Shown here: positions 223 to 43,623 of the stretch, one piece after another | Numbering within the stretch: the stretch's first letter is position 1 | Layout: the number at the start of each line of letters is the position of its first letter | The notes under the pieces: model-generated | The model's input: only the letters and a program-made list of their open reading frames with translations | Database searches by the model: none | Told to the model about the DNA's origin: nothing | NCBI GenBank assembly: GCA_947459875.1 | Contig: CANHFG010000001.1 | Span: 1 to 43,623 of the forward strand | Reading direction: 5' to 3' | Length of the DNA: 43,623 nucleotides | Source: Ignavibacteria bacterium | GTDB lineage: Bacteria; Bacteroidota; Ignavibacteria; Kapaibacteriales; Kapaibacteriaceae | Made by a program: the position numbers and the translations under genes

Positions 223-2058
223 TTATTCATTACTCGAGTGCAACCGCCTGTACACGCCATCGCGTGCCAGCAGCTCGGCATGCGTGCCTTCTTCGACGAT
301 ATGACCGTTGTCGAAGACCAGAATACGGTCGGCGTTGACGATCGTTGAGAGGCGGTGCGCTACGATGAGGGCCGTACGACCAACGAGGGCATCGTCGATC
401 GCCCCCTGAACCAGGCGTTCAGATTCCGTGTCGAGAGCCGATGTGGCCTCATCGAAGAGCAGGATCTGGGGCTGACGGTAGAGAGCACGGGCGATGGCGA
501 TGCGCTGGCGCTGCCCGCCAGAGATACGCACACCTCTGTCGCCGATGACGGTTTCGTACCCATTTGGAGTTTCACGAACAAACCCGTCAGCATGGGCAAT
601 GCGTGCCGCCATCTGCACGCGTTCCATATCGACCTCGTCATCGCCAAGCGCGATGTTGCGGGCGATGGTATCGTTGAAGAGGAGCGATTCCTGGGAGACA
701 ACACCAAAGAGTCGACGGTAGGCACCGAGATCAAGCGTGCGAACGTCCGTTCCGTTGATACGGATGCTACCCGAGCTCGGATCGTAGAAGCGCATGATCA
801 GGTCGAGGGCCGTCGACTTCCCGCTGCCGGACGCACCGACAAGCGCTACTTTTTCTCCCGGATGAATGGTGAACGAGACGTTGCTAAGCACCTCGCGGTC
901 GGCATACGAAAAGCTCACGTTGGACGCTTCGAGCACCGGCAGCTGGGCAGGGGGCTCGGCAGTTCCGGTCTTGATACTTGGCTTCGTGGCCAGTGCTGCA
1001 GCAACATTTGCGCCGGCGGCAATGCCTCGCTGCATGGCAGCGATCGTGTTGACGATGGCGCTGATGGGTTGCATCAGACCGAAGAGCAGGAAGAGGAACG
1101 TCATCAGGCTCGATGGGGCGATGACTCCAGCCGCCGTGTCCATGCTGCCGATGTAGAAGACTGTCACCAGGGCCATGATGCCGAAGGTATCGTTGACCAT
1201 GGGGATGAGTCCCATCACGCGTGCGTTACGCGTCGCCCTGCGCACGAAGGCAGCCGTCTGCTCGGCAAAGCGATTGGTCACAAAGCGTTCGATATTCATC
1301 CCCTTCACCACTCGGATGCCGAAGACCGTTTCCTGAAGCGTAGAGGTGTAGTCGGCCTGTGCCGCCTGCAACCTGGCTCCGTAGGAACGAAGAAGCCTGG
1401 TGGCCGTACGGATCAGGAGAAGCCCAATCATCGACACGCCAACGGAGATCACCGTGAGCTTGATGCTGATCAGACCCAGCAGTGTTAGGTAGATGATCAC
1501 CGTGGAGACCTCACGCCACATCACGGTAATGGAGTTTATGGTTGCGTGGTTGAGGATGTGAACGTCATTGGTCAGCAACGACATAATGTCGCCTGCTTTG
1601 CGCTTGGAAAAGAAGTCCAGCGATTGATCCGAGATATGATTGAAGAGTGCATCGCGCACCCGTTTCATGATCCCTTCCTCGAGGCGCGTCGAGATCACCG
1701 CGCTGACGTACTTGGTCAGCCCCCTGATGACAAACAGCCCAACGATCACCAGACTGATCGAGCGGAGGGATTCGCTCCGGTCAGCCGAGGTGATAAACCC
1801 ACCGAGCGTTTCGTTGAATACCTTCATGAACCCGGATACAGCCACAGTTCCGGTTGGCAGGGGGCTGGAGCTGGCGCCGAAGAGCGTACGGAACACCGGC
1901 TCGACCACGGCCAGAATGAGCGCATTGGCCGTCGAAAACGTCAGGTTGGCAAGCGTCGAGAATACGACGAGCCTCCATGCCGGACGCACAAAGGGCAGCA
2001 TGGTGCGGGCAAGGCGGCGTACCGTAAAGTCAGCGGCTGTGGTTGTGGGTGATGACAT
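223..2058 (-). CDS. ABC transporter, fused permease-ATPase (MsbA/lipid A exporter-like)
   Basis: N-terminal TM region, Walker [10 protein letters not shown], signature ISGGQRQRIAIARAL, Walker B ILLFDEATSALD. Confidence 0.93.
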   Translation of the reverse strand: MSSPTTTAADFTVRRLARTMLPFVRPAWRLVVFSTLANLTFSTANALILAVVEPVFRTLFGASSSPLPTGTVAVSGFMKVFNETLGGFITSADRSESLRSISLVIVGLFVIRGLTKYVSAVISTRLEEGIMKRVRDALFNHISDQSLDFFSKRKAGDIMSLLTNDVHILNHATINSITVMWREVSTVIIYLTLLGLISIKLTVISVGVSMIGLLLIRTATRLLRSYGARLQAAQADYTSTLQETVFGIRVVKGMNIERFVTNRFAEQTAAFVRRATRNARVMGLIPMVNDTFGIMALVTVFYIGSMDTAAGVIAPSSLMTFLFLLFGLMQPISAIVNTIAAMQRGIAAGANVAAALATKPSIKTGTAEPPAQLPVLEASNVSFSYADREVLSNVSFTIHPGEKVALVGASGSGKSTALDLIMRFYDPSSGSIRINGTDVRTLDLGAYRRLFGVVSQESLLFNDTIARNIALGDDEVDMERVQMAARIAHADGFVRETPNGYETVIGDRGVRISGGQRQRIAIARALYRQPQILLFDEATSALDTESERLVQGAIDDALVGRTALIVAHRLSTIVNADRILVFDNGHIVEEGTHAELLARDGVYRRLHSSNE

Positions 2059-2064
2059 TCCGGG

Positions 2065-3258
2065 TCAGCGATTAAGCGTTCGTTGGTAATCCCGAGCATA
2101 CCGGGAAATGGCCTTTGCCAGTGCCGTAGCGATGGCACTTTGCCCCTTGTTCGAGGCAAGATACTGCGCATCGCCGGTGTTTGAGAGGAAGCCTGTTTCG
2201 ACCAGGACGTTTGGCATGCTTGCACCGACGAGCACAAAAAAGCCCGCCTGGCTGACGCCACGGTCAGCCAGAGGGCAGCTGCCGGTGACCTCGCTCTGGA
2301 TCGACGAGGCAAGCGATTCGCTGAAGCGCACAAACGATCGCTGAGCCATGGTGGCAACGATGATCTGATCCTCGGTCATGGTCTGATACTGCTTCGTTGA
2401 GCTTTCGAATCGCACGGAAGCATTCTCTCTCTGCGCCACGCGTGCTGCATCGTCGTTGCGGCCCGGACGTAAGATGTATGTCTCACAGCCGTGAGCCGGA
2501 TGGGGCTTGCTGGGCATGCTATTGCAGTGAATGCTCATGAACAGTTTACCACCGGCATCGTTGGCGATCTCGGTCCGACGATACAGCTCGATGAACTCGT
2601 CGGTCTCACGCGTCATCACGACCTTGGTCATTGGTAGTTCTTTTCGCAGCGCATCGCGAAGCTTGCGAGCAATGGCCAGGGTAACGTCTTTTTCATAAGC
2701 GCCATTGACGCCTTCAGCGCCGACGTCCTTGCCGCCATGTCCGGCATCGATCACGATCACGTCAAGCGACCAGCGGCCGCCGGTAGCAACCCCGGAAGCA
2801 GGTTCCTGCATCATCAGTGCGGGTGGCGCCGTTCGACGGCGCACGCAGAGCAGGGCAAGTTCATTCGCCCCCTGACGTCGAACGATGAGCGTGTCGCGCA
2901 GGGCCGTGGCGATGCGCAGCACGGCGAACGTGCGGATCTGCTCAATGCTGCAGCGGACCTGTTCGGTGCGTGCCGATGAATCCACGACGGTCTGCGTGCA
3001 CGAGGCCGAAGGAAATCGCAGCAGCCAGCCCGAGGGGGTCTTCTCCGGACGCTGATACTGGGCAAGGGGCGAGGCAGTGCGCAGGACGATCGTGAGCGTA
3101 TCGGTGCCAATCGACGCGCGCACGGACTCGATGACCACCGTCTGAAGCAGCGGCTCGGAAGCGCGTAGCTGCGGCGCGCTATGCCCGATGAGACAGCCCA
3201 CGATGAGGGACGTCAGCGCGACACAACGAAGCACAGCATGAGAAGGGGTGGTGGCCAT
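2065..3258 (-). CDS. N-acetylmuramoyl-L-alanine amidase (Amidase_3) with N-terminal AMIN-like region
   Basis: VIVIDAGHGGKDVGAEG, SIHCNS, VLVETGFLSN motifs; signal peptide from MATTPSHAV; internal start at 3258 preferred over 3294. Confidence 0.9.
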   Translation of the reverse strand: MATTPSHAVLRCVALTSLIVGCLIGHSAPQLRASEPLLQTVVIESVRASIGTDTLTIVLRTASPLAQYQRPEKTPSGWLLRFPSASCTQTVVDSSARTEQVRCSIEQIRTFAVLRIATALRDTLIVRRQGANELALLCVRRRTAPPALMMQEPASGVATGGRWSLDVIVIDAGHGGKDVGAEGVNGAYEKDVTLAIARKLRDALRKELPMTKVVMTRETDEFIELYRRTEIANDAGGKLFMSIHCNSMPSKPHPAHGCETYILRPGRNDDAARVAQRENASVRFESSTKQYQTMTEDQIIVATMAQRSFVRFSESLASSIQSEVTGSCPLADRGVSQAGFFVLVGASMPNVLVETGFLSNTGDAQYLASNKGQSAIATALAKAISRYARDYQRTLNR

Positions 3259-3293: not shown

Positions 3294-4709
3294 ATGAAGC
3301 GGGACCGAATTCCTGTCGACGTAGAGATCACCATCGATGCTTTAGGCTTTGAGGGTGTGGCCGTAGGACGCATCGACGGGCATGTTCACTTTGTCAAAGG
3401 GGCTCTGCCCGGCGAGCGTGTGCGGGCTCGTATCACCGGACGTCAGAAGCGGCACATCCTTGCCGAGACCGTGGAAGTTCTCGAGCCATCGGCCCTGCGC
3501 CGCCAAGCCCCCTGTCCGCACTTCGGCGTTTGCGGTGGCTGCACCTGGCAGCATCTTGAGCATGCCGAGCAACTCCTCTGGAAGCGTCAGCACGTGGTGG
3601 ATGCCTTTGAGCGCATTGCCAAGGTCCCCGTCGGGGAGATCGCACAGACCTTAGCCTCGCCTACCGAGTACCGATATCGTAACAAAATGGAGTTTTCGTT
3701 CGGTGCCTCGCGCTGGCTCACTCGCCAGGAGATTGACAGCGGTGAGGAGTTCACGACATCGTTTGCCCTTGGACTTCACGTGCCGGGACGCTTCGACAAG
3801 GTCCGTCACATCAACTCGTGCCTGCTGCAGAGCAACGTCGGCGATGTGATCCTTCAGCACACACATTCGTGCGCCGAGCAGTTCGGCATAGCCCCATACC
3901 ATCAGCGCAATCATACTGGCTTTGCGCGCAGCCTCGTCGTGCGCACGAGCGCCAGCACTGGATCGGTGATGACCGTGCTGATAACCACAACGCCGCAGGC
4001 CGAGTTTGAGCACGACTTCATTGCCGAATGGATGTCACTGCATGCGCAGCTGCCGGCCGGTTCTTCGATGATCCACGCCATCAACGATACATGGTCTCCT
4101 GTGGCCGTCGGCACGATCACAACGGTGAATGGTCCAGGCTACCTCGAAGAGATAAGTCACGGCATCACCTATCGCATCTCGCCATTCTCGTTCTTTCAGA
4201 CCAACACCACGCATCTACCCAATCTCGTCGGCGCGGTGATGCAGGGGGCCGGCATCACCAAGGACTGCGTGGTGTGGGACCTATACTGTGGCACCGGCAC
4301 GCTCACGCTGCCGGCGGCAAAGCTTGCCAGGCAGGTTATCGGTGCTGAGCTTGCTGAAGGCTCGATCCTGGATGCCCGTGCAAACGCACAGCGCAATGGC
4401 ATAGACAATGTCGAGTTCCAGGTTGTCGATCTGCATCGTCCTGCCGCACTGGAGCTGCTGCGAACCTTCCCGAAGCCCGATGTGGTGATCGTCGATCCTC
4501 CGCGCAGCGGCATGCATGAGCAAGTGGTCAGCCACATCCTGGCTGTTGCCGCGCCCACGGTCGTGTATGTCAGCTGTAACCCCGGCACGATGGCCCGCGA
4601 CTGTGCGATTCTTTCGTCGACCTACGACGTTGCACACGTTACCCCTGTTGATATGTTCCCGCAGACCTACCATGTAGAGGCAGTGGGGGTGCTTCGAAGA
4701 CGGGGGTGA
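3294..4709 (+). CDS. rlmD: 23S rRNA (uracil-5-)-methyltransferase, RlmD/RumA family
   Basis: TRAM domain, CPHFGVCGGCTWQH Fe-S cysteines, WDLYCGTGTLTLP, DPPRSGMHEQV, YVSCNPGTMARD. Confidence 0.93.
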   Translation: MKRDRIPVDVEITIDALGFEGVAVGRIDGHVHFVKGALPGERVRARITGRQKRHILAETVEVLEPSALRRQAPCPHFGVCGGCTWQHLEHAEQLLWKRQHVVDAFERIAKVPVGEIAQTLASPTEYRYRNKMEFSFGASRWLTRQEIDSGEEFTTSFALGLHVPGRFDKVRHINSCLLQSNVGDVILQHTHSCAEQFGIAPYHQRNHTGFARSLVVRTSASTGSVMTVLITTTPQAEFEHDFIAEWMSLHAQLPAGSSMIHAINDTWSPVAVGTITTVNGPGYLEEISHGITYRISPFSFFQTNTTHLPNLVGAVMQGAGITKDCVVWDLYCGTGTLTLPAAKLARQVIGAELAEGSILDARANAQRNGIDNVEFQVVDLHRPAALELLRTFPKPDVVIVDPPRSGMHEQVVSHILAVAAPTVVYVSCNPGTMARDCAILSSTYDVAHVTPVDMFPQTYHVEAVGVLRRRG

Positions 4710-4744: not shown

Positions 4745-7615
4745 CCGGACAATGCCGATGGGAAAGAGGCGGGAGCTGCGCGCCGTGGTGAGGCGCACGA
4801 AGTAGGCACCCTGAGCCACGTCGGGGAGTGTGATCGTGACGCTGTGATCACCACTGATGACGTCGGACTCCGTGTGAAGCACGGCGACCTGTCGGCCGGT
4901 GATGTCGATCAGATCCAGCACGACATTACTTGGAAGTGTGAGCGAGTAGACGATCTCCGCCTCGCCACTTGAGAGAAGCGGAGAACCGGCAACGTGTTTG
5001 ATGCCATCGACCAGCGGGATAGGAACGTAGGGTTGGACTTCGACACCTTGATCAGTTGCTGCGTTTCGCATGCTGGTAAGGCCCTTGAGAAGATCCGAAC
5101 GACTCATTCCCGCTGCGATGATCCACGCGATCTGCTGAGAAGATCCTGGACTCAGCGAGAAGGGGCCTGCCCCGATGACCGTCGACGCGTCGGTGGGTGT
5201 TGATGTGCGCCGCCGCAGGCCCTGCGACATCATGAACCACTTTTCGGCGCGGGTGAAGTCATCGTAAATACTCGGGCAGTCGATCGCCCCGTCATTATCC
5301 ACGGCAAAGCCGTTCAGTGGAAGGGGAGAGATCATCGTCATCGCCACTCGCGGCAGCGCGGACTCGACAACATTACGATGCATGAACGCCCCGAGCTCAC
5401 TGTCCCATGAGCAGACGTTATTCGCACCGTTCGCGCCGATGTCAAAGTCGAAGAAGTATGCCGCGTAGATGTTGTCGATGCTTCTGTCGGAGGCGTTCGT
5501 CACTGTGAGCACAACAAGGATGCTGTTCTTGAGTGAATCCTCATCGCGCGCATAGACGTTTTTCATGACCGTCAGACCCAGGCCATCTGTGCTGCGGTCG
5601 TCCGTAAAGGCAGTCGCTACGCGCGCGCCGCTAACGACGCTATCCGTGCGAAGACTTGCTGCACGAGAGCTTTTGAAGGAGTTGTCGCGCACGTTTGTTT
5701 CTTCACCGCGTGCAACATTCGGAAGAAGCGTCGGCGCTGTGCCGATCATGAGAGCCCCTTCAAAAAGCAGAGACGGCGACTCCTTGTAGCGGAAGCCCAC
5801 TCCCTGCTCGTTAGCCGAGTAGTCGTTATAGCCGATGTTGCCCGAAGAATTCACCGTTGTGGCAATGTCGTTAACACTGATCGTGGCATACGTCGGATTG
5901 GCCACGGTACTGATGACATCGCTTCCAACAACGCCACCGTCATCGAAGACACGCACGCGCAGATCGATACGCTGATTATCCGACAGCGACTGTTTGAGAC
6001 GAAACCGCAGCGGACTCGGCAACGTCAGCTCCTGCTGCGCAGCCAGCGCGCCAAAGGAGATCACCGAGTCGATCATCTCGACGCTGCTGTCGAGACTCTG
6101 CAGCACAACACGTGCGTTGGCAAGGTCACTCAGCACGTTGCGAAGCGTAATGGTAAGATCGAGTGCGTCGCCGTTGCGAAAGATGCCGTCGGCATCAACG
6201 TCCGAGATCAGATGTCGCGTTACCACGCACCAGCGTGTAGCCAGACCTGAGCAGGCACGGTAAGCGTTGATACGTCCCATGCCAAACTTGCCAACGTAGG
6301 CACTATTGAGCGTATCGATGTCCTCGCACGATGAGACCAGCGCTGCACGCACCTGCGACGGGGTATACGATGGGAAGCACTGCGTGATCATGGCAGCGAC
6401 GGCCGAAACGATCGGCGCGGCCATCGACGTGCCGTTGTACGACGCGTAGGAGTTGCCGGTAATCGTTGAGAAAATGCCGACGCCAGGAGCGCATACATCG
6501 ACCGTTGAGTGGATGTTTGAGAAGGGGGCGAGGCGGTCCGAAAGATCCGTTGCTGCAACAGAGACGGCCTCTGCATACGCAGCGGGATAAAAGGCCTGGT
6601 CCGACGCGTCATTCCCGGCAGCGCCCACAACGAGGCTCCCCAGTTTTGTGGCCGTCTGGATCACGTCGACATCGGCAAAGGTGGGCGAGCTGCTCCCGAA
6701 AGAACAGTTGATCACGTCGGCACCCATGGCTGAAGCATACAGGATGCCGTCGGCCGAGCGCGCAACGGATTCCGAGTTCGGATCGTCGCGACCCACCTTG
6801 ACGGCCATCACGCGCACCTGGCGAGCAACACCCGCCATGCCGATGGCGTTGTTGACCTGAGCTGCAACAATGCCGCCAACGTGGGTGCCGTGACTGTTTC
6901 CCGGTAGGGGGATGTTGTCCTGCATCGATCCGTTACGTCCAACAAAGTCCCATCCAAACCAGTCGTCGACAAATCCGTTGCCGTCATCATCCTTGCGGTT
7001 TGTGCGCTTATCCAGGCCGGAGTCATCAAGCCCCATTTCAGCCGAGTTTTTCCAAACGCTTCCCTGCAGATCTACATGGGCGGTATCGATGCCCGTGTCG
7101 ATGATCGCCACCAGCGCGCTTGCTGAAGGGGGAAGCAGTTCCCAGGCACGAAAAACATCGATGCGGGGAAGGTAGTACTGGCGCTGTAGCTCCGGATCAT
7201 TCGGCTGTCCCACGATCCGCTGCTCGGGCAGCACCTGGGCCTGCAGGACCAGCGAATTCTGTCGGAGCTTTGAGGCCAGGAGGGCGGCATTGCGCGGACC
7301 GTGCAGGGTGATCACGGCGTACCGCTGCAGACGCTCAATGGTCGACTCCAGACGGGTCTTTGCCGATGATGACCTTTCGATAGCCTGCTCGACGCATTGC
7401 AGCGTGGAGCTGAGAATGTAGGGGGCTGTGGTGTGCTCACCAAGCAACGACCTAAGAGCGTCAATCTGACCTGATCGGCCGCTGCGGAGCCATTCGGTGT
7501 AGGACGGAGTGTTGCCGTTAAATTCGATGACGATCGACGGCTGCTGAGAGGCAGCACGTCCGGCGCTGAGTGCCAGCAGAAGAGCAACGACCACACGCTT
7601 GACTGCGCGTCTCAT
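4742..7615 (-). CDS. Subtilisin-like S8 peptidase with T9SS type A C-terminal sorting domain
   Basis: VAIIDTGIDTAH, GNSHGTHVGGIVAA, NGTSMAAPIVSAVAAM; C-terminal VLDLIDITGRQVAVL...GAYFVRLTTARSSRLFPIGIVR; ATGA overlap with upstream gene. Confidence 0.92.
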   Translation of the reverse strand: MRRAVKRVVVALLLALSAGRAASQQPSIVIEFNGNTPSYTEWLRSGRSGQIDALRSLLGEHTTAPYILSSTLQCVEQAIERSSSAKTRLESTIERLQRYAVITLHGPRNAALLASKLRQNSLVLQAQVLPEQRIVGQPNDPELQRQYYLPRIDVFRAWELLPPSASALVAIIDTGIDTAHVDLQGSVWKNSAEMGLDDSGLDKRTNRKDDDGNGFVDDWFGWDFVGRNGSMQDNIPLPGNSHGTHVGGIVAAQVNNAIGMAGVARQVRVMAVKVGRDDPNSESVARSADGILYASAMGADVINCSFGSSSPTFADVDVIQTATKLGSLVVGAAGNDASDQAFYPAAYAEAVSVAATDLSDRLAPFSNIHSTVDVCAPGVGIFSTITGNSYASYNGTSMAAPIVSAVAAMITQCFPSYTPSQVRAALVSSCEDIDTLNSAYVGKFGMGRINAYRACSGLATRWCVVTRHLISDVDADGIFRNGDALDLTITLRNVLSDLANARVVLQSLDSSVEMIDSVISFGALAAQQELTLPSPLRFRLKQSLSDNQRIDLRVRVFDDGGVVGSDVISTVANPTYATISVNDIATTVNSSGNIGYNDYSANEQGVGFRYKESPSLLFEGALMIGTAPTLLPNVARGEETNVRDNSFKSSRAASLRTDSVVSGARVATAFTDDRSTDGLGLTVMKNVYARDEDSLKNSILVVLTVTNASDRSIDNIYAAYFFDFDIGANGANNVCSWDSELGAFMHRNVVESALPRVAMTMISPLPLNGFAVDNDGAIDCPSIYDDFTRAEKWFMMSQGLRRRTSTPTDASTVIGAGPFSLSPGSSQQIAWIIAAGMSRSDLLKGLTSMRNAATDQGVEVQPYVPIPLVDGIKHVAGSPLLSSGEAEIVYSLTLPSNVVLDLIDITGRQVAVLHTESDVISGDHSVTITLPDVAQGAYFVRLTTARSSRLFPIGIVR

Positions 7616-8373
7616 CGGGCATTCCACGTGATGCGTTTGCGCATGATGCGCTCGCGGCCCAGACGCACTTCGGCTATGTACTCACCCGTCGAAACCGGCT
7701 TGCCGTCCTGTGCCTTGCCGTTCCAGGTGATCGTGTACGTTCCCGGTTCCTGTTTGCCAGTAAAGAGTGTAGCCACGATCATGGCCTGCGTCGAATAGAT
7801 CACGATCTCCACGTCCAGATAATCGTCAACCACATAACGGATCACCGGGCTGACGTCTTCTCCAATGCCGAACACCTTGGCGATGTCCGAGAAGTTCACC
7901 TGCAGGTTGCCGGTACCCATCGGTCTGAGCAGCACACCTGGTACGTACATCGCATTGGCGATCGTCAACTGGTACTGCGTTACTTCCTGATCGCGCGGCT
8001 TGAAGATCGACGCTGGAATGTCCATCGTTGCGTCGATCTGATCCCAGATCGTGCGTCGGGCATTGGCACGGGACATCGCCAGGAGCATCGCCGAAGTTTC
8101 CCTTGCGGCCATTGCGAAACGTGCCGGAGCCGTGATCTGCAGTTCCATAGCCTGACGGTAGAGACTATCCTGCTCGCGTGAGGAGGGGGCTTGCGCCTGA
8201 CCCGGAACACCCGGACGCGTAGCCTGCGACGTGTCCGATGTCATGAACTCCGCCGGCGAAAGCGGGCGCGGCTGCTGCAGCACCGACGTGGGTTGCTGAC
8301 CGCGCAGCATCAGCGTCGTGCCGAGCATGGTCAGAACAATGCAGAACAGTACCGATGTGTTTCTCAGGATCAT
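7612..8373 (-). CDS. Secreted protein with FlgD-like Ig domain
   Basis: Signal peptide; C-terminal GTYTITWNGKAQDGKPVSTGEYIAEVRLG is typical of FlgD Ig-like repeats. Confidence 0.65.
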   Translation of the reverse strand: MILRNTSVLFCIVLTMLGTTLMLRGQQPTSVLQQPRPLSPAEFMTSDTSQATRPGVPGQAQAPSSREQDSLYRQAMELQITAPARFAMAARETSAMLLAMSRANARRTIWDQIDATMDIPASIFKPRDQEVTQYQLTIANAMYVPGVLLRPMGTGNLQVNFSDIAKVFGIGEDVSPVIRYVVDDYLDVEIVIYSTQAMIVATLFTGKQEPGTYTITWNGKAQDGKPVSTGEYIAEVRLGRERIMRKRITWNAR

Positions 8374-8475: not shown

Positions 8476-10017
8476 TTACTGACCGAGGCTGGATTTGTCT
8501 GCGTCGCGCAGCAAATCACCGAGGGTGACGCCCGGAGATGGCGGTGCAGGCTCGTGACGCGGCTGTGGACGCTCACGGTCGCGGTCACGGTCATTATCAC
8601 GCTGACGTCCGCCGCCCTGCCAGTCATTTGACTGCTGTCCAGCAACCGAGCCATCTTCGTTGCGCATTGCAAGAATGAGGCTCGCGTTTTCTGGGCTGAG
8701 GTCGACCACGACGCAGGCCAGCGTGTCGCCCACGCTGAGCGTGGTCTTGCCACCGCGAGCTCCGGCCATCTTTGAGCGTGGCATGAAGCCATCGAATGTG
8801 TCGCGCACACGAATAACAGCCCCCTGCGTGCTTACGCTTTGCACGGTGCCTTCGACGTCGCTGCCCGAGGGGAGTTCAGTCGAAAGCGTCAGCCATGGAT
8901 TTGGCTGTGTCTGCTTGTAACCCAGAGCGAGCTGGTGCTTTTGTTCGTCGGCGGAAAGGACTTCAACGTCTATCGTCTGGCCTACAGAGACCACTTCTGA
9001 CGGGTGCTTGACGCGGCGCGTCCAGCTCAGCTCGCTGATACGCAGCAAGCCTTCGATCTTCGGGCTGACCTGGACGTAGGCGCCAAAATCAGTGATGCGC
9101 TGAACCGTACCCTGGATGCGCTTGCCGGCCGGATAGGCCTGTTCGACGCCCACCCATGGATCGGCTTCGTGCTCCTTGTGTGAGAGGGCGATTTTCTTCT
9201 TCTCGCGGTCGATCTCGACGATCGTCACCTTCAGCTTGTCGCCCTTGCGCACAACGTCCGATGGGCTTGTCACGCGCGAGCGCGACATCCGTGAGACGTG
9301 CAGCAGGCCTTCGACTCCGCCGATGTTGACAAACGCGCCAAATGCCGTCACCGACGATACCACACCATCGACCACGGCGCCAACGACGACCGTGTTCCAG
9401 AGTTCGTCGAGGAGGATCTCGCGTCGGGAGACCACTGCTGACTTGTGACCGGCATCATCCGATTGCAACTCGTGCACCTTCACGCGCACGGTCTGACCAA
9501 CCAGCTGTTGCAGCTCATCATCCGACACGTTCTTGCGAAGACCAACCTGCGAGGCAGGAAGGAACACGCGCAGTCCCTGGAAGACGCCACGCAAACCACC
9601 CTTGACGCGCTCACCAATGGTGATCTCGAAGATCCCCGCTGCTTGCTTGAACCCCTCAAGCGCCGCAAAAGCCTCATCACGCTGCTTGCGCTCTTCTTCC
9701 TTGCGCTTGCGTTCTTCTTCACGCTTGCGGGCCTGCTCTTCACGCTCCTCAGCGCTCATGGCCGGTGCTGCTTCAGCCGGAGCTTCAGCCGGAGCTTCAG
9801 CCGGAGCTTCAGCCGGAGCTTCAGCCGGAGCTTCAGCCGGAGCTTCTGGAGCTGGTTCCGGCTGCACGTCGACAGCGGGCTCGGCAGCAACCAATTCGTC
9901 TGGTGCTTCTGGTGTAGCTTCCGTTGCCTCAGGGGCAGCGGCTGTTGGTTCTTGGGCGGACTCGCCTGCGGTCAGATCGGTGTTTTCGGCACCGTCAATT
10001 GGCTGTTCGGACATCAT
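8476..10017 (-). CDS. S1 RNA-binding domain protein (ribosomal S1-like, multiple S1 repeats)
   Basis: Repeated S1 signatures GVVSSVTAFGAFVNIGGVEGLLHVS, GTVQRITDFGAYVQVSPKIEGLLRISELSW; acidic/Pro-Ala N-terminus. Confidence 0.9.
   Translation of the reverse strand: MMSEQPIDGAENTDLTAGESAQEPTAAAPEATEATPEAPDELVAAEPAVDVQPEPAPEAPAEAPAEAPAEAPAEAPAEAPAEAAPAMSAEEREEQARKREEERKRKEEERKQRDEAFAALEGFKQAAGIFEITIGERVKGGLRGVFQGLRVFLPASQVGLRKNVSDDELQQLVGQTVRVKVHELQSDDAGHKSAVVSRREILLDELWNTVVVGAVVDGVVSSVTAFGAFVNIGGVEGLLHVSRMSRSRVTSPSDVVRKGDKLKVTIVEIDREKKKIALSHKEHEADPWVGVEQAYPAGKRIQGTVQRITDFGAYVQVSPKIEGLLRISELSWTRRVKHPSEVVSVGQTIDVEVLSADEQKHQLALGYKQTQPNPWLTLSTELPSGSDVEGTVQSVSTQGAVIRVRDTFDGFMPRSKMAGARGGKTTLSVGDTLACVVVDLSPENASLILAMRNEDGSVAGQQSNDWQGGGRQRDNDRDRDRERPQPRHEPAPPSPGVTLGDLLRDADKSSLGQ
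9770..9841. repeat. Six perfect 12-bp repeats (gcttcagccgga) encoding (EAPA)n in the S1-domain protein
   Basis: Direct reading. Confidence 0.95.
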
Positions 10018-10171
10018 TGCACGACAAAAGTGGAAGGGAGATTCAACATCTACTGCTCGCCATGTGGCGATCGCTGTCCCCCGTTACAAGGGGGCCGTAA
10101 AGATACGGCAAATTGGTATTGTCCTGTGAATATCGAAGGCCTCACGGCAACCATTACCGTAGCGTTACATC

Positions 10172-10195
10172 AGGGGGCGGAATGGCTCGCCCCCT
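10172..10195. repeat. Inverted repeat AGGGGGC-N10-GCCCCCT
   Basis: cagggggcggaatggctcgcccccttc. Confidence 0.95.
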
Positions 10196-14021: not shown

Positions 14022-14141
14022 AATTACGGAATTACGGAATTACGGAAGTACGGAAGTACGGAAGTACGGAAGTACGGAAGTACGGAAGTACGGAAGTACG
14101 GAAGTACGGAAGTACGGAAGTACGGAAGTACGGAAGTACGG
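14022..14141. repeat. Octamer tandem array: 3x AATTACGG + 12x AAGTACGG
   Basis: Direct reading, starts immediately after the TAG stop of the E2 gene. Confidence 0.97.
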
Positions 14142-32797: not shown

Positions 32798-32818
32798 ACT
32801 TGGCTGGCAGGGGGCTTA

Positions 32819-35800
32819 TCAGGCCGGATAGGTTGTTGCTCCGCTCGCCCCGTGACAGGCCTTGAACTTCATCCCTGATCCGCACGGACACGGTTCGTTA
32901 CGCCCGACCTTACGTCCGACGTTGCGTACCGTTGACGTAGACTGACTCTCCTGCGAGGCGTTCGGGTCGGCCCCAAGTGCAGGCGTCGCGCTCGGATGTG
33001 AAAAGCGCAGCTGACGTGTTGGCGTGGATGTTGCCACAGACGGCACGACCACAGGACGCGGCGCGGCTGCGGCTGCAGGGCGTTCGACGGCTTGCGGGAA
33101 GTACTTGAAGGCAAACGACACGGTGGCTTCGTTGATCTGATTGATCAGATCGAGGAACACACGATATGCTTCCTGCTTGTACTCAAGGATCGGGTCTTTC
33201 TGACCATATGCCCGCAGGTAGATCCCTTCCTTCAGGTCGTCCATCACACGCAGGTGCTCGCGCCACTCATCGTCTACGGCGCGCAGTGCCGCAACGCGCT
33301 CAAGCTGTGACATGAATTCGTGTCCAAGCATTGACTCTTTTCGATCATAGAAGTCAACGACGGCTTCCATGACCCGCTCCATGACCTGCTCCTTCGATTC
33401 CGAGGAGAATGCTTCAGAGGTCAGATTCGGTTCACACAGCATCTTGGCGCGGATGGTATTCATGAACGCCACATGGTCGCCCGAGGGGTGATGTTCGTCG
33501 TACCAAAGCTCACAGAGTTCGGAAGCATACTCGAGGATCTCACTGCGAAGGCGTTCACCCATAAGGGCATGACGGCGACGATCGTAGATCACTTCGCGCT
33601 GCTGATTCATCACATTGTCATACTCCAGAAGACGCTTGCGGATGCCGAAGTTATTGCCCTCGACCTTCTTCTGGGCGTTCTCGACGGCCTTGGTGACGAT
33701 GCCGCTTTCGATCGGTTCGCCTTCGGGGACCTTCATGCGCTGCATTGCCGATGAAAGGCGCTCACCTCCGAAAAGTCGCATGAGATCATCTTCGAGCGAG
33801 ATGAAGAACTGCGACGAACCCGGATCTCCCTGACGGCCGGAGCGACCGCGAAGCTGTCGGTCGATGCGACGCGCTTCGTGGCGTTCAGTGCCGATGATCG
33901 AAAGGCCTCCGGCCGTCTTCACATCAGCGTCAAGCTTAATGTCCGTGCCACGACCGGCCATATTCGTGGCGATCATCACGGCGCCCTTCTTTCCTGCATT
34001 GGCCACGATCTCTGCCTCACGCTGGTGCTGCTTGGCGTTGAGCACGTTGTGCGGGACGTTAGCACGCTTGAGCATCTTGCTCAGAAGCTCGGATACCTCC
34101 ACACTTGTTGTGCCCACAAGGACGGCTCGGCCGGCAGTGAGCTCGCGCTGGACGCCTTCGACGACGGCATTGTACTTCTCGCGCTTGGTGCGGAAGATAA
34201 GGTCGTTCATGTCCTTGCGCTGAACCGGGCGGTTCGTAGGAATTGCTACCACGTCAAGACTGTAGATCTGCCAGAACTCGGCTGCTTCGGTCTCTGCCGT
34301 TCCGGTCATGCCGGCCAGCTTGTGATAGAGTCGGAAGTAGTTCTGCAGAGTGACGGTGGCAAAGGTCTGCGTATCCTGCTCGACGAACACGCCTTCTTTG
34401 GCCTCGATCGCCTGGTGAAGTCCGTCAGAGTAGCGACGTCCTTCCAGAATGCGACCCGTGAATTCGTCGACGATCTTGATCTTGCCGTCCTGCACCACAT
34501 ACTCATCGTCACGAACATAGAGCGTGTAAGCGCGTAGCAGCTGATTGACGATGTGGATGCGATCTGATCGGTCCGAGAAGATGCGCATCAGTTCGTCGCG
34601 CTTGATCGTCTTTTCCTCGGCGCCAACCGACGCGTCGCCTTCGAGTGCACTCATTTGTGCGGCGATGTCGGGGATCACGAACATCTCAGGGTCTTCCTGC
34701 GACGACGTCAGCAGCTCTCGCCCCTTTTCGGAGATATCGATCGAGTGATTCTTTTCATCGACCGTGAAGTAAAGCTCTTTGTCGATGATATGCATGCGCT
34801 GACCCTGGTCGCGCAGATAGTCCAGTTCCGTGTCGCGCAGAAGCTTCATGGCATCAGGATCCTGAAGCATCTTCAGCAGCTTGCTCTGCTTCGGCATTCC
34901 GCGGTTGGCACGAAGCAGGTTAACACCGGCGTTCACGCGATCTTCTTTGTATCCCGTTGCCAGGAGTTTTTCGGCCTCGGCAACAATGCTGTTGACGAAC
35001 TTGGCCTGGGCATCGACGAGACGCTGGATGCGCGGCTTCATATCGACGAATGCTGTTTCGGTGCTACCGGCCGTTACCGGTCCGGAGATGATAAGGGGCG
35101 TACGTGCCTCGTCGATCAGAACCGAGTCGACCTCGTCAACGATCGCAAACCAGTGCCCGCGCTGTACCATGTCCTGCGGGTCGGTGACCATGTTGTCGCG
35201 AAGGTAGTCGAATCCGAACTCGTTATTGGTGCCCCACGTGATATCGGCTGCATACTGAACCTTGCGGTCATCCGGACGCATGTCGGACTGAATGCAGCCG
35301 GTATTGACGCCAAGGAAATCGAAGATCGGACGCATCCACTCGCGGTCACGTCGCGCCAGGTAATCGTTCACCGTCACAAGGTGCACGCCACGTCCGGCAA
35401 GGGAATTGAGATACAACGGCAGCGTCGAGACGAGCGTTTTCCCTTCACCTGTTCCCATCTCTGCGATTTTGCCCTGGTGCAGCACCATTCCGCCGATCAG
35501 TTGCACATCATAGGGGACCATGTCCCACGTCTGTTCGTTGCCGACCACCATGTAGCGGTGTCCAACCAGACGCCGGCAAGCTTCCTTAACGACGGCGAAT
35601 GCCTCGGGAAGGATGTCATTGAGCGCTTCCTGGGTTGCTTCAAACTGCTCACGCTCATTCGCCGTCAGGCGTGCGTAAAGATTGGACCGCTCGGTGTGAT
35701 CCATCGTCAGGTCTGAGCGAAGACGTTCGCGGATCTCATCGGCTTCTGACCGAAGATCAGCAACGGCCTCGACAACGCGCTCGCGGAACTCCTGCGTCTT

Positions 35801-36327: not shown

Positions 36328-37469
36328 TGATATACCTCGACAATAGTGCGACGACTCGCATTGACGACGACGTTCTTGAGGCGATGATGCCCTGGCTGCG
36401 CGACGAATACGGTAATGCCTCAGGCATCTATGCCAGCGGCCGGCGGGCCCGTGTTGCGATCGAGTCGGCCAGAACAGCCATCGCAGCGGCGATGAATGCC
36501 CATCCGGCCGAGATCATTTTTACCAGCGGTGGAACTGAATCCAACAACGCCATTCTAAAGAGCGTCTGCGTGGAATCAGCCCTGGCCGAGCGCTTGGCTG
36601 TGGCAGCTACCGAACACCATGCCGTGTTGCATCCGGCCGAGACCCTTGAGCATCAGGGCGTGCCGCTGACGATCCTTGCGGTTGACCGCTCGGGGCGTGT
36701 CGTCCCGGGACAGCTGCAGACGCTGAACGTCCCGCGCACGCTTGTTAGCGTGATGCACGCCAACAACGAGACGGGAACCATCCAGCCCCTTGCCGAGATC
36801 CGACGGGAGATTCCCAATGCCTATCTGCATAGCGACGCGGTGCAGACGTTCGGGAAGATCCCCGTTGATGTGCAGGCGTTGGGCGTTGACTTTCTGAGCT
36901 TTTCGGCGCACAAGATCCACGGGCCGAAAGGTATCGGCGCGATGTTTATTCGAAAGGGGATAGACTTCAAATCGCATCAGCAAGGGGGCGGACAGGAGCG
37001 CAACCGGCGTGCCGGTACCGAACCGGTAGCACTGATCGTGGGCTTTGCGCAGGCTGTCAGGAGCGCAATCGAACAGATGGATGAGCGTGCGGCTCACATG
37101 CGGTCGCTGATCACGACGGCGCGCGAGATCATTCAGATGGAGATCCCCGATGTCCGCCTGAACACACCTTCCGATGCGGCCCTGCCGAACATCCTGAACG
37201 TGTCGTTTGTCGATGCCGACAGGATTGACGGCGAAGCCATCATTCAGTCTATGGACATTGCCGGCGTTGCCGTTTCGAACGGAAGTGCCTGCGTATCGGG
37301 CAGTCAGCAGCCATCGCATGTTCTTCTTGCGATGGGGCTCCCAGCGTCTGAATCGCGCGCTGCCGTGCGTTTGTCAGTGAGCAAGTACACCACGCCGGAA
37401 GAGATTATGCAGACCTGTGCAATACTTTCGGACATTGTCCGTAAATTGCGTGGTGCAACACACAATTAG
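36327..37469 (+). CDS. Cysteine desulfurase (IscS/NifS family)
   Basis: YLDNSATTRID, FTSGGTESNN, SAHKIHGPKGIG, GGQERNRRAGTEPV, NGSACVSGSQQPSHVL. Confidence 0.94.
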   Translation: MIYLDNSATTRIDDDVLEAMMPWLRDEYGNASGIYASGRRARVAIESARTAIAAAMNAHPAEIIFTSGGTESNNAILKSVCVESALAERLAVAATEHHAVLHPAETLEHQGVPLTILAVDRSGRVVPGQLQTLNVPRTLVSVMHANNETGTIQPLAEIRREIPNAYLHSDAVQTFGKIPVDVQALGVDFLSFSAHKIHGPKGIGAMFIRKGIDFKSHQQGGGQERNRRAGTEPVALIVGFAQAVRSAIEQMDERAAHMRSLITTAREIIQMEIPDVRLNTPSDAALPNILNVSFVDADRIDGEAIIQSMDIAGVAVSNGSACVSGSQQPSHVLLAMGLPASESRAAVRLSVSKYTTPEEIMQTCAILSDIVRKLRGATHN

Positions 37470-38246: not shown

Positions 38247-40709
38247 ATGTCGATTACCACGCGCTCTATCCGCCTGCTTTTGCCGCTGAGGCTCGCGATT
38301 TTGTCGCTGATGCTGATTTCCGCATCGAACATTGGCGTTGCCAGCAGCGGAGGCATTTCTGGACGATCGATCGTGGGGTGTGGTGGCTGCCACGGTGGCG
38401 CTTCAGCCAACACCAACGTCAATCTTGAGGGTCCACGCACGGTCAAAGCCGGGGCGACAAATACCTTCACATTCATCGTCGGTCATGGTTTGCACCGCAA
38501 CGCCGGCTTCAATTTGAGCTTTCGTGATAACGTCGGAACCGTCGGCACGCTGATACCTGGACCCAACACGCAGATCTTCGCCAACGAGCTGACGCAGACC
38601 GGTGTTACGGCGTTCAATGGCGCTACGGCGCGCTTTGCGTTTCAGTGGACTGCGCCTGCGGCGCACGGGACGTACAGTTTTGCCGGAGCAGGCAATGCCG
38701 TCAACAATGATGGTAACGATGATAATGCCGACGATTGGGCTCTGACCGGCAATATCACGATGACCGTCACGGGAGCAAACTTCACCAAACCTGCCGCCGG
38801 GACGACGATCTGCGCTGGTTCGCAGATCACCGTTGAGTGGTCGCAGACAGGCCTTGGCAATGTGCGCATCGAAATGTCGAAGGACAACTTCGCCACCACC
38901 GAAGTGATCAATACGCTCGCGGCAAGTGGCCTCTCGACGCTGTATACCATTCCCACGACGGTAGCTGCCGGAAGCTATATCATTCGCATGGTTGACGTGG
39001 CTACGGGCGAAGAGATCACGCGTAGCGGCGCGATCAATGTGCAGGCCGGACCCAATATCACGCTGCAGCCGGCCCCGACGTTTGTCTGTGCCGGGAAGAC
39101 ACTGACTTTAACGGTTTCGGCCACGGGCAACAACGTGCAGTATCGATGGCGTCGTAACGGCGTTGACATTCCGGGTGGGACCAATCCCGTACTGACGATC
39201 AACCAGGCAACGCAGGCCGAGGCGGGCGTCTACCAATGCGTGGTGTTCGCCTGCAACACCAGTGCTTCATCGGATGAGATCGTTGTGACCGTCGGAGACC
39301 GACCGACCATTACACGTCAGCCCCTTCCGAGGCTGATCTGTGAAGGGGACAGTGCGTCGTTCTCGATCGCTGCCAGCGGAGCAGATCTGCGCTATCAGTG
39401 GCTAAAGAATGGAGCGCCGTTGCCCGATGACACATTGAACGTGCTCAAGTTCGACAAAGCAACGCTTCTGGATGAGGCAACCTACAGTTGCCGAGTCGAG
39501 GGGGCTTGCTCTCCGAGTGTGACCTCGGCTGAGGTAAAGCTCGACATCACGGCATTGCCGCTGATCCGCACGCAGCCGGTGGACCGGGCTCTGCGCGAGG
39601 GTGACACGCTTACACTGTCGGTCGAGGCAGGGGGCGAAGAACTCGTCTATCAGTGGTTCCGCGATGGACAGGCGATTCCGTCCGGGAAGTCAAGACTTCT
39701 TCGCGTAGTCAGCGTTACACGTCAAGACAGCGGCGTCTACACATGCATGGTCTTCAACCGCTGTGACAGTGTGACTTCGAAGGGGGCAGTGGTAAGTGTG
39801 CAGCCCGTGGCCGGTCCGGGACGTCTGAAGCTGGCATCATCGTCGATCGCCCTCGGAGGAATCGTCACGTGCCTAACGGTCGATACAACGCTTACGGGCC
39901 TGCTGATCAACGACGGAGGATCGCCGATCACCATCACGTCGATCTCGGCCGACCCGGTTACGAAGATCGAAGTTGTGGGCCTGAAGGCCCCTTTCACGAT
40001 GGCCGTCAACGAGCGTCGTAATCTGCAGATCCGCGTAAGCCCCAAGTCGCCCGGCCCATTTGAAGCCAAGGTGACTTTCTTTGCCAGCTCTGGGCAGGAA
40101 ACATTCACCGTCAGCGGGGATGGCGCACCGTCACTGCGTTTTTCCAAGGACACGCTGTTCTTCCCGAAGGGGCAGGCCGGAACAACGATCTGCAACGAGT
40201 CCTTCGAGATACCTTGCGGAAGCACGGTGATCACCGGCGTGCGCATCTCGGGTGACGGCGCTCTGACGTGGGGATTCTCGCCGTTCCCGGCAACGCCGAT
40301 CGATCTGCGCAGCGGCGAGAAACTGTCTCTCTGCGTTCAATCGACGCAGGCCGAAGGTCTTGGCGCGCTTGTGAGCATCAGCACGGATCTTGGGCTTGTG
40401 ACCTTTTACGTAGACCGTACCGAGGTAACGAGCGTTGAGGAGGGCGACCCGGCCCCAGTCCCGGGAAGCGTCCGCGTGTACCCGAACCCTGCGGCCAGTG
40501 ATGTTACCGTTGCTGGCGCTCCGGACGAGCGCCTGAAGCTCTCGATCTACACTCTGACGGGTCAGCTCGTGCAGACGATCGAGGGAAGGGGCGAACTGCG
40601 CTGGGACCGCAGAGATATCTCGGGTGCGGTGGTGCAAGGCGGACTCTACATGCTAGCAATCGATGGCTCAACCAGCGGGCGGACATTGAGAAAGCTCGTG
40701 GTGTACTAA
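38247..40709 (+). CDS. Surface protein: single CxxCH choice-of-anchor/reelin-like N-domain, Ig-like repeats, T9SS type A sorting domain
   Basis: Signal peptide, GCGGCHGGA, three Ig-like YQW/YRW...GVYxC repeats, C-terminal VRVYPNPAASDVTV...LYMLAIDG. Confidence 0.85.
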   Translation: MSITTRSIRLLLPLRLAILSLMLISASNIGVASSGGISGRSIVGCGGCHGGASANTNVNLEGPRTVKAGATNTFTFIVGHGLHRNAGFNLSFRDNVGTVGTLIPGPNTQIFANELTQTGVTAFNGATARFAFQWTAPAAHGTYSFAGAGNAVNNDGNDDNADDWALTGNITMTVTGANFTKPAAGTTICAGSQITVEWSQTGLGNVRIEMSKDNFATTEVINTLAASGLSTLYTIPTTVAAGSYIIRMVDVATGEEITRSGAINVQAGPNITLQPAPTFVCAGKTLTLTVSATGNNVQYRWRRNGVDIPGGTNPVLTINQATQAEAGVYQCVVFACNTSASSDEIVVTVGDRPTITRQPLPRLICEGDSASFSIAASGADLRYQWLKNGAPLPDDTLNVLKFDKATLLDEATYSCRVEGACSPSVTSAEVKLDITALPLIRTQPVDRALREGDTLTLSVEAGGEELVYQWFRDGQAIPSGKSRLLRVVSVTRQDSGVYTCMVFNRCDSVTSKGAVVSVQPVAGPGRLKLASSSIALGGIVTCLTVDTTLTGLLINDGGSPITITSISADPVTKIEVVGLKAPFTMAVNERRNLQIRVSPKSPGPFEAKVTFFASSGQETFTVSGDGAPSLRFSKDTLFFPKGQAGTTICNESFEIPCGSTVITGVRISGDGALTWGFSPFPATPIDLRSGEKLSLCVQSTQAEGLGALVSISTDLGLVTFYVDRTEVTSVEEGDPAPVPGSVRVYPNPAASDVTVAGAPDERLKLSIYTLTGQLVQTIEGRGELRWDRRDISGAVVQGGLYMLAIDGSTSGRTLRKLVVY

Positions 40710-40793: not shown

Positions 40794-42248
40794 TTACGGG
40801 AAGATGCCCAGCGACATGTACGATGTGGCGATCTTGTCGATCGAACTCACGAATGCCGCCGTCCGCATGTCTTTGACCTTTGGATTGCCAAAGTAGATCT
40901 CACCGATCGTGTGATAGGAGGCGATCATGGTGTCTTCCAGACCTGAGTTCACCAGATCTTCTTCGTCAGCACCACGGGCGATCACCTGACGCTCAGCCAG
41001 CGTGAGACTCTTGCCGGTGAGACGTTCTACCGTGTCAACAATGCGAAGGTTAGAGCCCTCTTCGAAGCGCTTGTCCATCCGTCCGAATCGCACGTGTGAG
41101 AGATTCTTGAGCCATTCGAAGTATGAGACCACCACGCCACCGGCGTTGACGAACATATCCGGCATCACCAGAATACCCTTCTTGAGAAGGATCGGTTCTG
41201 CTTCCGAGGTGATCGGACCGTTGGCGCCCTCGGCGATGATCTTGGCCTTGATCTTAGCAGCATTGCCCTTGTGAATCTGTGATTCAAGAGCAGCCGGTAC
41301 GAGAATGTCGCACTCGTACTCGAGCACGCTGTTGCCATCCTTGATCGTCTTGCATCCGGCAAATCCGGTGATGGTTCCTGTGGCCATCCGGTGCGTTTGT
41401 AGGGCATTGATATCGATGCCCTTCGGGTTGACGATCGCGCCGTCCCACTCGATCACGCCCACGACCGTTGCGCCGGCTTCGTGGAGAAACTTCGCAGCGT
41501 AGTATCCTACGTTGCCAAAGCCCTGCACGATGACGCGCTTGTCGGAAAGCCCCGTGGTCATCTTGAGCTTCTTCATAAGCTTTGGATCGTTGACGGCTTC
41601 GCGCACAGCAAAGAACAGGCCACGGCCCGTTGCCGCCGTGCGCCCACGAACACCACCCTGGCCGACCGGCTTGCCGGTAACGCAACCAAGGGCGTTGATG
41701 TCGTCTTGAACCATAGCCTGATAGGTATCGGCGATCCATGCCATTTCGCGAGGCCCGGTACCGTAGTCAGGTGCCGGCACGTCGACCGATGCACCGATGA
41801 AGTTCTTCTTGATCAGCTCCACCGTGTAGCGACGCGTGATGCGCTCGAGTTCTTCCTCGGTATACTGCTTTGGATCGATGCGGATACCACCCTTACCACC
41901 ACCAAATGGCACGTCGACGACGGCGCACTTGTAGGTCATAAGAGCCGCCAATGCCTGCACTTCTTCCTGGTCCACCGTCATGGCATAGCGAATGCCTCCC
42001 TTGGTGGGCAGCTTGTGGTGACTGTGCTCGGCCCGCCATGCCTGAATGACCTGGATGCCACCCTTGATGCGCACCGGGAACTGCATGTAGTACACCGAGT
42101 TGCAGGCGCGAATCTGCTCAAGGAGCCCCTTGGGGACGTCCATGATCGATGCAGCCTTATCGAAGTAGGCGTTAACGGATTCCAGGAACGGGTTGTGCCC
42201 GGGGAAGTGGGAGGACACAGTGCCTCCCTTTTTTGCTGATGCAGCCAT
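40794..42248 (-). CDS. Glutamate/Leu dehydrogenase (Glu/Leu/Phe/Val family)
   Basis: [61 protein letters not shown]. Confidence 0.95.
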
Positions 42249-42283: not shown

Positions 42284-43384
42284 TTACAGATTTCCGCGCA
42301 GCGCCTGCTCGCGTTCGATTGACTCGAACAGGGCCTTGAAGTTTCCTTTGCCAAACGAGCGAGCTCCACGACGCTGAATGATCTCGAAGAACACTGTCGG
42401 ACGATCTTCAACCGGCTTGGTGAAGATCTGAAGGAGATAGCCTTCTTCGTCACGGTCGACAAGAATATTCAGGTCGCGCAGGTCGTTGATGTTCTCATCG
42501 ATCGTACCAACGCGCTCAAAGAGGTCCTCGTAGTATGTATTCGGTACCTGGAGAAACTGTACGCCCCTGCGGCGCAGTTCCCCTACGGTGTGGAGGATGT
42601 CGTCCGTGGCAACAGCGATATGCTGAACACCGGCACCGCGGTAGAATTCGATGTACTCCTCGATCTGACTCTTCTTCTTGCCCGAGGCAGGTTCGTTGAT
42701 CGGGAACTTGACGTATCCGGAGCCGTTCGACACGACCTTTGACATCAGTGCCGAATACTCCGTCGAGATGTCCTTGTCATCGAAGGTGATCAGAAGCTTG
42801 AAGCCAAGCACGTCTTCGTAGAACTTTACCCAGGAGTTCATCTGGCCGAGCTCGACATTACCGACGCAGTGATCGACGAACATCAACCCGATAGGTTCCG
42901 TCTTGTAGCCGTCGTCAATGGCCTTGTAGCCGGGCATGAAGGGGCCCGTGTAGTTCTTACGTTCCACGAACGTGTGAACCGTATCTCCGTATGTCTTGAT
43001 CGTTGCAACAACGACCTCGCCGAACTCGTCCTTCAGGACCGTTGGCTCCTGAACGCCAACGGCACCGCGTGATGTCGTTGCATGCCAAGCCGCCGTTGCG
43101 TCATCGACCCACAGAGCCAGAACCTTGACGCCGTCTCCGTGCTTGGCAACATGTTCGGTAATCGGTCCATCGGGATGCATCGCAGAGGTCAGGACAAGAC
43201 GGATCTTACCCTGCTGCAGAACGTATGATGCTCGGTCGCGGACGCCGGTTTCGGGTCCGGCGTATGCCACGAGCTGAAACCCAAACGCCGTCCGATAGAA
43301 GTAGGACGACTGTTTGGCATTACCGCAATAGATCTCCAGGTAGTCTGTGCCATTGAGCGGCAGGAAATCTTCGTTGGCATTCAT
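42284..43384 (-). CDS. hpd: 4-hydroxyphenylpyruvate dioxygenase
   Basis: YLEIYCGNAKQSSYFYRTAFGF, VDHCVGNV, GVQHIAVATDDI, LLQIFTKPVEDRPTVFFEIIQRRGARSFGKGNFKALFESIE. Confidence 0.95.
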   Translation of the reverse strand: MNANEDFLPLNGTDYLEIYCGNAKQSSYFYRTAFGFQLVAYAGPETGVRDRASYVLQQGKIRLVLTSAMHPDGPITEHVAKHGDGVKVLALWVDDATAAWHATTSRGAVGVQEPTVLKDEFGEVVVATIKTYGDTVHTFVERKNYTGPFMPGYKAIDDGYKTEPIGLMFVDHCVGNVELGQMNSWVKFYEDVLGFKLLITFDDKDISTEYSALMSKVVSNGSGYVKFPINEPASGKKKSQIEEYIEFYRGAGVQHIAVATDDILHTVGELRRRGVQFLQVPNTYYEDLFERVGTIDENINDLRDLNILVDRDEEGYLLQIFTKPVEDRPTVFFEIIQRRGARSFGKGNFKALFESIEREQALRGNL

Positions 43385-43387
43385 GGG

Positions 43388-43623
43388 TCAAACCTCACGT
43401 ACGAGAATTGGTGACTGTTCTTCATGTGTCTGATGCTGAAGTATCCCATTACGAAGAACTTCAGCAAGGCGTGTTGTCTGCTCGAGAGTTCCAGTGCTTA
43501 TCCGAACGCATGAGGGCAGTCCGAATCCGGTCAGGGGGCGAGAGATAAAGCCCCCTTGCAGAAGTAGCCGATGAAATCGCGATGCTGATTCCGGAGACCG
43601 GAGGTCTATCATCAGAAAGTTGG
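43388..43623 (-). CDS. HisC-like class I/II aminotransferase, C-terminal fragment (truncated by window end)
   Basis: GGFISRPLTGFGLPSCVRISTGTLEQTTRLAEVL; frame stays open to the window edge. Confidence 0.8.
   Translation of the reverse strand, partial: NFLMIDLRSPESASRFHRLLLQGGFISRPLTGFGLPSCVRISTGTLEQTTRLAEVLRNGILQHQTHEEQSPILVREV
43533..43556. repeat. Inverted repeat AGGGGGC-N10-GCCCCCT inside the HisC-like gene
   Basis: agggggcgagagataaagccccct. Confidence 0.95.

Follow-up and report, generated by a model that had tools for sequence, protein, structure and literature searches.

The heptamer 5'-ARGGGGC-3' (R being A or G) recurs at about 1.5 copies per kb in the genome of an uncultured Ignavibacteria bacterium of the family Kapaibacteriaceae, with copies facing the same way held apart from one another and copies facing opposite ways spaced independently. 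The stretch analyzed, referred to here as the window, comprises positions 1 to 43,623 (43,623 bp, 58.2% GC) of contig CANHFG010000001.1 in assembly GCA_947459875.1, a metagenome-assembled genome (MAG) whose 150 contigs total 2.396 Mb at 99.4% completeness. The orientation-specific spacing is a new finding, and it lifts ARGGGGC above a mere over-represented oligomer. The motif probably steers DNA repair. The leading proposal for its role, to which we give something close to an even chance, is a Chi-like recombination-repair signal with AddAB as its most likely reader; ARGGGGC is likened to Chi but is not assigned to it as a member.

Definition and abundance of the motif

A sequence-only reading of the window had reported some 41 copies of AGGGGGC where base composition predicts about 10. 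An exact count returned the identical figure, 27 forward and 14 as GCCCCCT, at the positions given in that reading, and the base-composition expectation is indeed about 10. The same reading's context bias was reproduced to the digit: NGGGGGC on both strands carries A 41 times, C once, T once, and G never. In the whole 2.4 Mb host genome, AGGGGGC is present 2026 times (1012+1014), against 132 (63+69) for the reversed word. AAGGGGC, mentioned earlier as a frequent shorter relative, belongs to the same motif, differing by an A at position 2, and occurs 29 times in the window and 1471 times (741+730) in the genome, against 215 (122+93) for its control. The octamer ARGGGGCT reaches 1803 copies, against 107 for its control.

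Markov, codon-shuffle, and frame analyses were applied to 443.6 kb of the host genome, holding 319 copies of AGGGGGC where base composition predicts 101. Under an order-3 Markov model, AGGGGGC is the heptamer in greatest excess (319 vs. 46.8 expected), and AAGGGGC is the second (272 vs. 60.0). Shuffling synonymous codons within genes gives expectations of 48.8 for AGGGGGC (282 observed), 44.0 for AAGGGGC (238 observed), 9.9 for AGGGGGCT (132 observed), and 14.2 for AAGGGGCT (134 observed). Nearly all other single-base variants of the two heptamers occur at or below the codon-shuffle expectation. CGGGGGC and TGGGGGC, whose equal frequency would have refuted the observation by the terms of the sequence-only reading, fall short of expectation within genes, with 23 against 64.5 for the former and 21 against 41.2 for the latter. 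Because the excess is restricted almost entirely to these few words, the full motif is 5'-ARGGGGC-3', with T favored at the next position; the original observation of AGGGGGC was real but under-described.

Most copies are genic, about 90% of the DNA being coding according to a home-made gene caller, and intergenic copies of AGGGGGC (34 of 319) are proportionate to the non-coding share of 9.6% obtained by the same caller. The predominance of genic copies would suit an incidental origin from codon usage, from mutation bias, or from some dispersed repeat, which we consider very improbable. All six reading frames are occupied, at about six times the codon-shuffle level, with 278 sense copies where about 44 are expected and 242 antisense copies where about 49 are expected. 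Codon shuffle and frame counts together rule out a codon-pair origin, as the sequence-only reading had argued. Flanks are unconserved past about three bases on each side, so no longer repeat has the motif at its core, and origin from a dispersed repeat or miniature inverted-repeat transposable element is ruled out. The orthologous conservation and oriented spacing described below likewise speak against a by-product. ARGGGGC is a DNA-level signal.

Spacing, turnover and taxonomic range

All pairs of sites were tallied by distance, separately for same and opposite orientation, and compared with expectation. For same-orientation ARGGGGC pairs in the host genome, observed/expected counts are 1/9.6 at 7-30 bp, 2/12.0 at 31-60 bp, 5/16.0 at 61-100 bp, 16/40.0 at 101-200 bp, 19/39.9 at 201-300 bp, and 29/39.8 up to 400 bp, with the depletion ending only past about 1 kb. 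Opposite-orientation pairs stay at about 1.0 of expectation past 30 bp. At 7-30 bp, inverted pairs are in two-fold excess (20/9.5); seven or eight of these 20 are intergenic, and some are intergenic hairpins. An independent set of genus relatives gives 0/6.4, 3/8.0, 0/10.7, and 11/26.6 for same-orientation pairs. Permutation of orientations at 31-400 bp yields z = -5.7 for the host, -6.0 for the genus relatives, and -2.9 for G014, a relative complete in one contig of 2.84 Mb, in which the depletion is weaker. AAGGGGC and AGGGGGC also repel one another and therefore constitute one functional word; among 66 heptamers of similar abundance, they have the two lowest same-orientation values. The coefficient of variation of same-orientation gaps is 0.76, against 1 for random placement. 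Sites are sparser in G014, and the depletion there extends to about 1.6 kb, so that its length appears to scale with site spacing. The AGGGGGC subset taken alone shows no repulsion in G014, in part because a tandem protein-coding repeat (L151:10054-11227), with GCCCCCT in several of its units, inflates the count of same-orientation AGGGGGC pairs.

Conservation at orthologous positions, a check suggested with the original observation, was found. In G009, at 74% identity, 41 of 81 host sites are kept as ARGGGGC, against 10.3 expected from in-phase neighboring 7-mers; about half of the sites are thus lost at this distance. The corresponding figures are 24 of 44 (6.3 expected) in G001, 15 of 44 (2.9 expected) in G010, and 9 of 52 (4.9 expected) in the weakly enriched G007. 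Retention of AGGGGGC ranks third among 311 GC-rich heptamers, at 0.35 where the mean is 0.09. In six relatives taken together, new sites less than 500 bp from a lost site divide 32:24 between the same and the opposite orientation, whereas those less than 500 bp from a kept site divide 12:40 (Fisher p = 4e-4, an optimistic value, since some host sites enter the comparison with two or more relatives). Sites are maintained at orthologous positions, and where one is lost, another of like orientation arises close by. From same-orientation repulsion together with same-orientation replacement, we infer that the motif is read in one direction and that only a same-facing neighbor can substitute; the reader would be a unidirectional machine translocating along DNA.

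AGGGGGC is enriched in all ten genus relatives searched (433-2131 copies) and, of six further genera in the family, in all but genus g3 (G012 and G017). The motif is present in 20 of 22 family genomes (relatives of Candidatus Kapaibacterium), while none of 37 other genomes of the order is enriched for AGGGGGC. AAGGGGC has the same range across genomes. No comparable enrichment of ARGGGGCT is seen in a sample of 140 other Bacteroidota, the majority of which lie near or below control. ARGGGGC is a family signature that is missing from one genus.

Other repeated words were encountered in these genomes. ARGGCGGC shows a three-fold excess in G012 (1052 vs. 342 for its control; loci L112, L161-L169) and no enrichment in G017, a hint of a possible variant or "dialect" of the signal in a genome that lacks ARGGGGC. 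A repeat with GGCTACTAGAGCAGATCTTTGAAAGT in it, present about 160 times in G014 (L114, L121-L160), and another with CACCCGCACACGCGGGGATGA, present about 75 times in G017 (L170-L179), probably form large arrays of clustered regularly interspaced short palindromic repeats (CRISPR).

Sites and tandem repeats in the window

Sites in the window are listed below by coordinates, strand, and word. Every single site is an exact match.

401-407, minus, AGGGGGC
949-955, plus, AGGGGGC
1719-1725, minus, AGGGGGC
1859-1865, plus, AGGGGGC
2142-2148, minus, AAGGGGC
2867-2873, minus, AGGGGGC
3064-3070, plus, AAGGGGC
3397-3403, plus, AAGGGGC
3507-3513, minus, AGGGGGC
4243-4249, plus, AGGGGGC
5160-5166, plus, AAGGGGC
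5754-5760, minus, AAGGGGC
6523-6529, plus, AGGGGGC
7420-7426, plus, AGGGGGC
8184-8190, plus, AGGGGGC
8819-8825, minus, AGGGGGC
10089-10095, plus, AGGGGGC
10172-10195, inverted pair of AGGGGGC (10172 plus, 10189 minus), intergenic, hairpin-capable
11832-11838, plus, AGGGGGC
12146-12152, plus, AGGGGGC
13082-13088, minus, AAGGGGC
14325-14348, inverted pair of AGGGGGC (14325 plus, 14342 minus), within a gene
15881-15887, minus, AAGGGGC
16361-16367, minus, AGGGGGC
16612-16618, plus, AAGGGGC
16909-16915, plus, AAGGGGC
18094-18100, plus, AGGGGGC
18426-18432, plus, AGGGGGC
18932-18938, minus, AAGGGGC
19444-19450, minus, AGGGGGC
19951-19957, minus, AGGGGGC
19981-19987, plus, AAGGGGC
20028-20034, plus, AGGGGGC
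21359-21365, minus, AAGGGGC
21469-21475, plus, AGGGGGC
22478-22484, plus, AAGGGGC
22651-22657, minus, AAGGGGC
22796-22802, plus, AAGGGGC
23714-23720, plus, AGGGGGC
23862-23868, minus, AGGGGGC
24039-24045, plus, AAGGGGC
24908-24914, plus, AAGGGGC
25766-25772, plus, AGGGGGC
26208-26214, plus, AGGGGGC
27091-27097, minus, AAGGGGC
28989-28995, plus, AGGGGGC
29280-29286, minus, AAGGGGC
29617-29623, minus, AGGGGGC
29901-29907, plus, AGGGGGC
31444-31450, plus, AGGGGGC
32013-32019, minus, AGGGGGC
32602-32608, minus, AAGGGGC
32809-32815, plus, AGGGGGC
34720-34726, minus, AAGGGGC
35093-35099, plus, AAGGGGC
36785-36791, minus, AAGGGGC
36983-36989, plus, AGGGGGC
39320-39326, minus, AAGGGGC
39499-39505, plus, AGGGGGC
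39629-39635, plus, AGGGGGC
39781-39787, plus, AGGGGGC
39987-39993, minus, AAGGGGC
40167-40173, plus, AAGGGGC
40586-40592, plus, AAGGGGC
42125-42131, minus, AAGGGGC
42939-42945, plus, AAGGGGC
43533-43556, inverted pair of AGGGGGC (43533 plus, 43550 minus), within a gene

The window also holds several tandem repeats. Its start is occupied by 12 copies of the 7-bp unit AGTGACA (1-87), adjoining an intergenic array (86-213) of 16 degenerate copies of the 8-bp unit GTACTTCC with a 24-bp superunit. A second intergenic array, at 14021-14141, consists of 15 copies of the 8-bp unit GAAGTACG with 99% matches, and words resembling ACGGAATTACGG, from the unit of these octamer arrays, are over-represented elsewhere in the host genome too. 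A perfect 12-bp tandem repeat, GCTTCAGCCGGA, present 6.4 times at 9770-9846, lies in a gene resembling that for 30S ribosomal protein S1 (8476-10017).

Candidate readers of the motif

The mechanism that we favor would make ARGGGGC(T) a chromosome-wide signal under selection, read one way by a machine that travels along DNA. That machine would be AddAB, the nuclease-helicase of double-strand-break repair, and ARGGGGC would be its Chi-like signal to stop degrading and recombine. AddAB would enter at a broken end and degrade DNA up to the first correctly oriented site, so that each strand would require a site of its own at intervals of one to two kilobases; a further site close by and facing the same way would add little, and one facing the opposite way would not matter. 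An end-entering enzyme of this type is expected to produce redundancy within one orientation, independence between orientations, and regular coverage of each strand. A search of 23 genomes returned homologs of AddB, with NCBIfam TIGR02773 as best match, in 21, and most have a second PF12705 protein. With Chi of RecBCD (GCTGGTGG) and the Chi-like motifs of AddAB (AGCGG, GAAGCGG, GCGCGT(G)), ARGGGGC shares a short, G-rich, non-palindromic, over-represented, and partly degenerate sequence, indirect signs of orientation-dependent reading, and AddAB-type genes in the lineage. In its shortness, its richness in G, its non-palindromic form, and its single degenerate position, ARGGGGC resembles the known Chi-like motifs, which are listed for only five bacterial species (PMC8022716).

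Several observations weigh against this assignment. AddB was not found in the host MAG, where the miss may possibly reflect an assembly gap; the nearest relative, G008, has AddB, and the host encodes two other PF12705 proteins, neither individually identified as AddA. AddB is present in members of the order from other families lacking ARGGGGC, and in genus g3, from which the motif is likewise absent. In the motif-bearing family, AddB forms a long-stemmed, fast-evolving clade (L240, L248, L251, L253, L255, L256) with about 30% identity between genera, where SecA has about 70% and the motif itself is fixed. The AddB tree has many long branches, leaves g3 unseparated from the motif-bearing genera, and does not identify the reader; a PDB search with AddB returned no match. 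Replication polarity is lacking as well: with the origin placed by GC skew, AGGGGGC in G014 divides 114:104 between leading and lagging strands. Counted in the same way, E. coli Chi divides 115:24, with the replichores of that chromosome assigned as generally understood. The same script, applied to 139 Chi sites in 650 kb of E. coli, found no same-orientation repulsion, and repulsion is therefore not a validated property of Chi. Because leading-strand polarity, a defining feature of Chi, was tested and is absent, ARGGGGC is not filed as a member of that class. It differs from E. coli Chi on both properties measured, polarity and same-orientation repulsion, and also in its greater density; from Chi and the Chi-like motifs alike it differs in that its recognition by AddAB is putative.

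The sequence-only reading had offered a list of roles that included the favored Chi-like one; its other entries fared less well. A polar signal for chromosome segregation, like the FtsK-orienting polar sequences (KOPS), shares with ARGGGGC an abundant, short, G-rich, directional word; it requires strong polarity toward the terminus, and in G014 ARGGGGC divides about 261:213 as AGGGGGC does 114:104. This candidate has next to no probability and is rejected. A DNA uptake signal, by which word-bearing DNA would be preferentially imported and copies would accumulate through biased transformation, is unlikely. ARGGGGC resembles the DNA uptake sequence (DUS) of Neisseriaceae and the uptake signal sequence (USS) of Pasteurellaceae in several respects: about one copy per kb in both orientations (1012/1014) without replichore polarity, as reported for uptake sequences (PMC1939737), mostly intragenic sites, a range of one family, and an excess of close inverted pairs, some of them intergenic hairpins, like the pairs of uptake sequences located at terminators. 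ComEC-like proteins occur in 39 of 40 genomes, including genomes without the motif. Both the PilQ-type secretin TIGR02515 and PF00437, the ATPase of type II secretion and type IV pili, are above cut-off in 0 of 40 genomes of the order, although PF00437 matched in all 14 control genomes. With type IV filament genes undetected in these 40 genomes, pilus-based uptake as known lacks its machine, and we know of no established DUS/USS system that does not depend on pilus-driven uptake. Some Bacteroidota are naturally transformable, and a screen in Riemerella found genes other than pilus genes (PMC8459023), so uptake is not impossible. Uptake efficiency was reported to be independent of motif orientation (PMC1939737), which predicts repulsion in both orientations; only same-orientation pairs repel, an indirect argument against uptake. 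ARGGGGC is also shorter than DUS/USS (7-8 bp vs. 9-12 bp) and lacks a cloud of one-mismatch copies, which occur at 0.48 times base-composition expectation, a test weakened by the high 7-mer background.

We hold it improbable that ARGGGGC is a word linked to restriction-modification or akin to HIP1 of cyanobacteria (GCGATCGC), the target of a methyltransferase or of a repair enzyme favoring its own site. A strictly specific 7-bp word that has one degenerate purine and only one adenine resembles the targets of non-palindromic (type IIG/III-like) methyltransferases, and HIP1, tied to orphan methyltransferases (PMC4390886), is likewise highly iterated in coding DNA, clade-restricted, and of no established function. 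HIP1 is a palindromic octamer, however, whereas ARGGGGC is non-palindromic and directional. The one methyltransferase class searched, the N6/N4 family PF01555, is not conserved alongside the motif, being missing from the host genome and about half of motif-bearing family members, and methylation offers no reason for same-orientation repulsion. A serious alternative, if a somewhat unlikely one, is some other, undescribed process read by orientation, for instance a step that reads single strands in replication restart, strand exchange, chromosome organization, or import. Oriented spacing and replacement demand a directional reader without naming one, and such behavior is undocumented for Chi, which shows no repulsion in E. 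coli, or for uptake sequences. No candidate reader for such a process was found, and the lack of replication polarity speaks against readers of the lagging-strand or FtsK type. The related claim that ARGGGGC founds a class of its own among chromosome-wide signals, read by orientation, set apart from Chi by its lack of polarity and from uptake sequences by undetected pilus genes and orientation-specific spacing, selected so that each strand has a correctly oriented copy every one to two kilobases, and served by a directional reader in Kapabacteria, has a limited but real chance of being right. The Chi-like reading leads.

In the open-access literature searched, we found no earlier report of AGGGGGC as an iterated bacterial motif, or of a Chi-like motif in Kapabacteria. 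The spacing test, combined with oriented replacement across orthologs, offers a means of showing directional reading of an iterated motif from sequence alone, and it may be applied to mysteries of the HIP1 type and to the discovery of Chi in uncultured lineages. If AddAB is indeed the reader, the sharp range of the motif (20 of 22 family genomes, 0 of 37 other members of the order) and the fast-evolving AddB clade would together serve as a natural experiment in the emergence and change of recombination signals.

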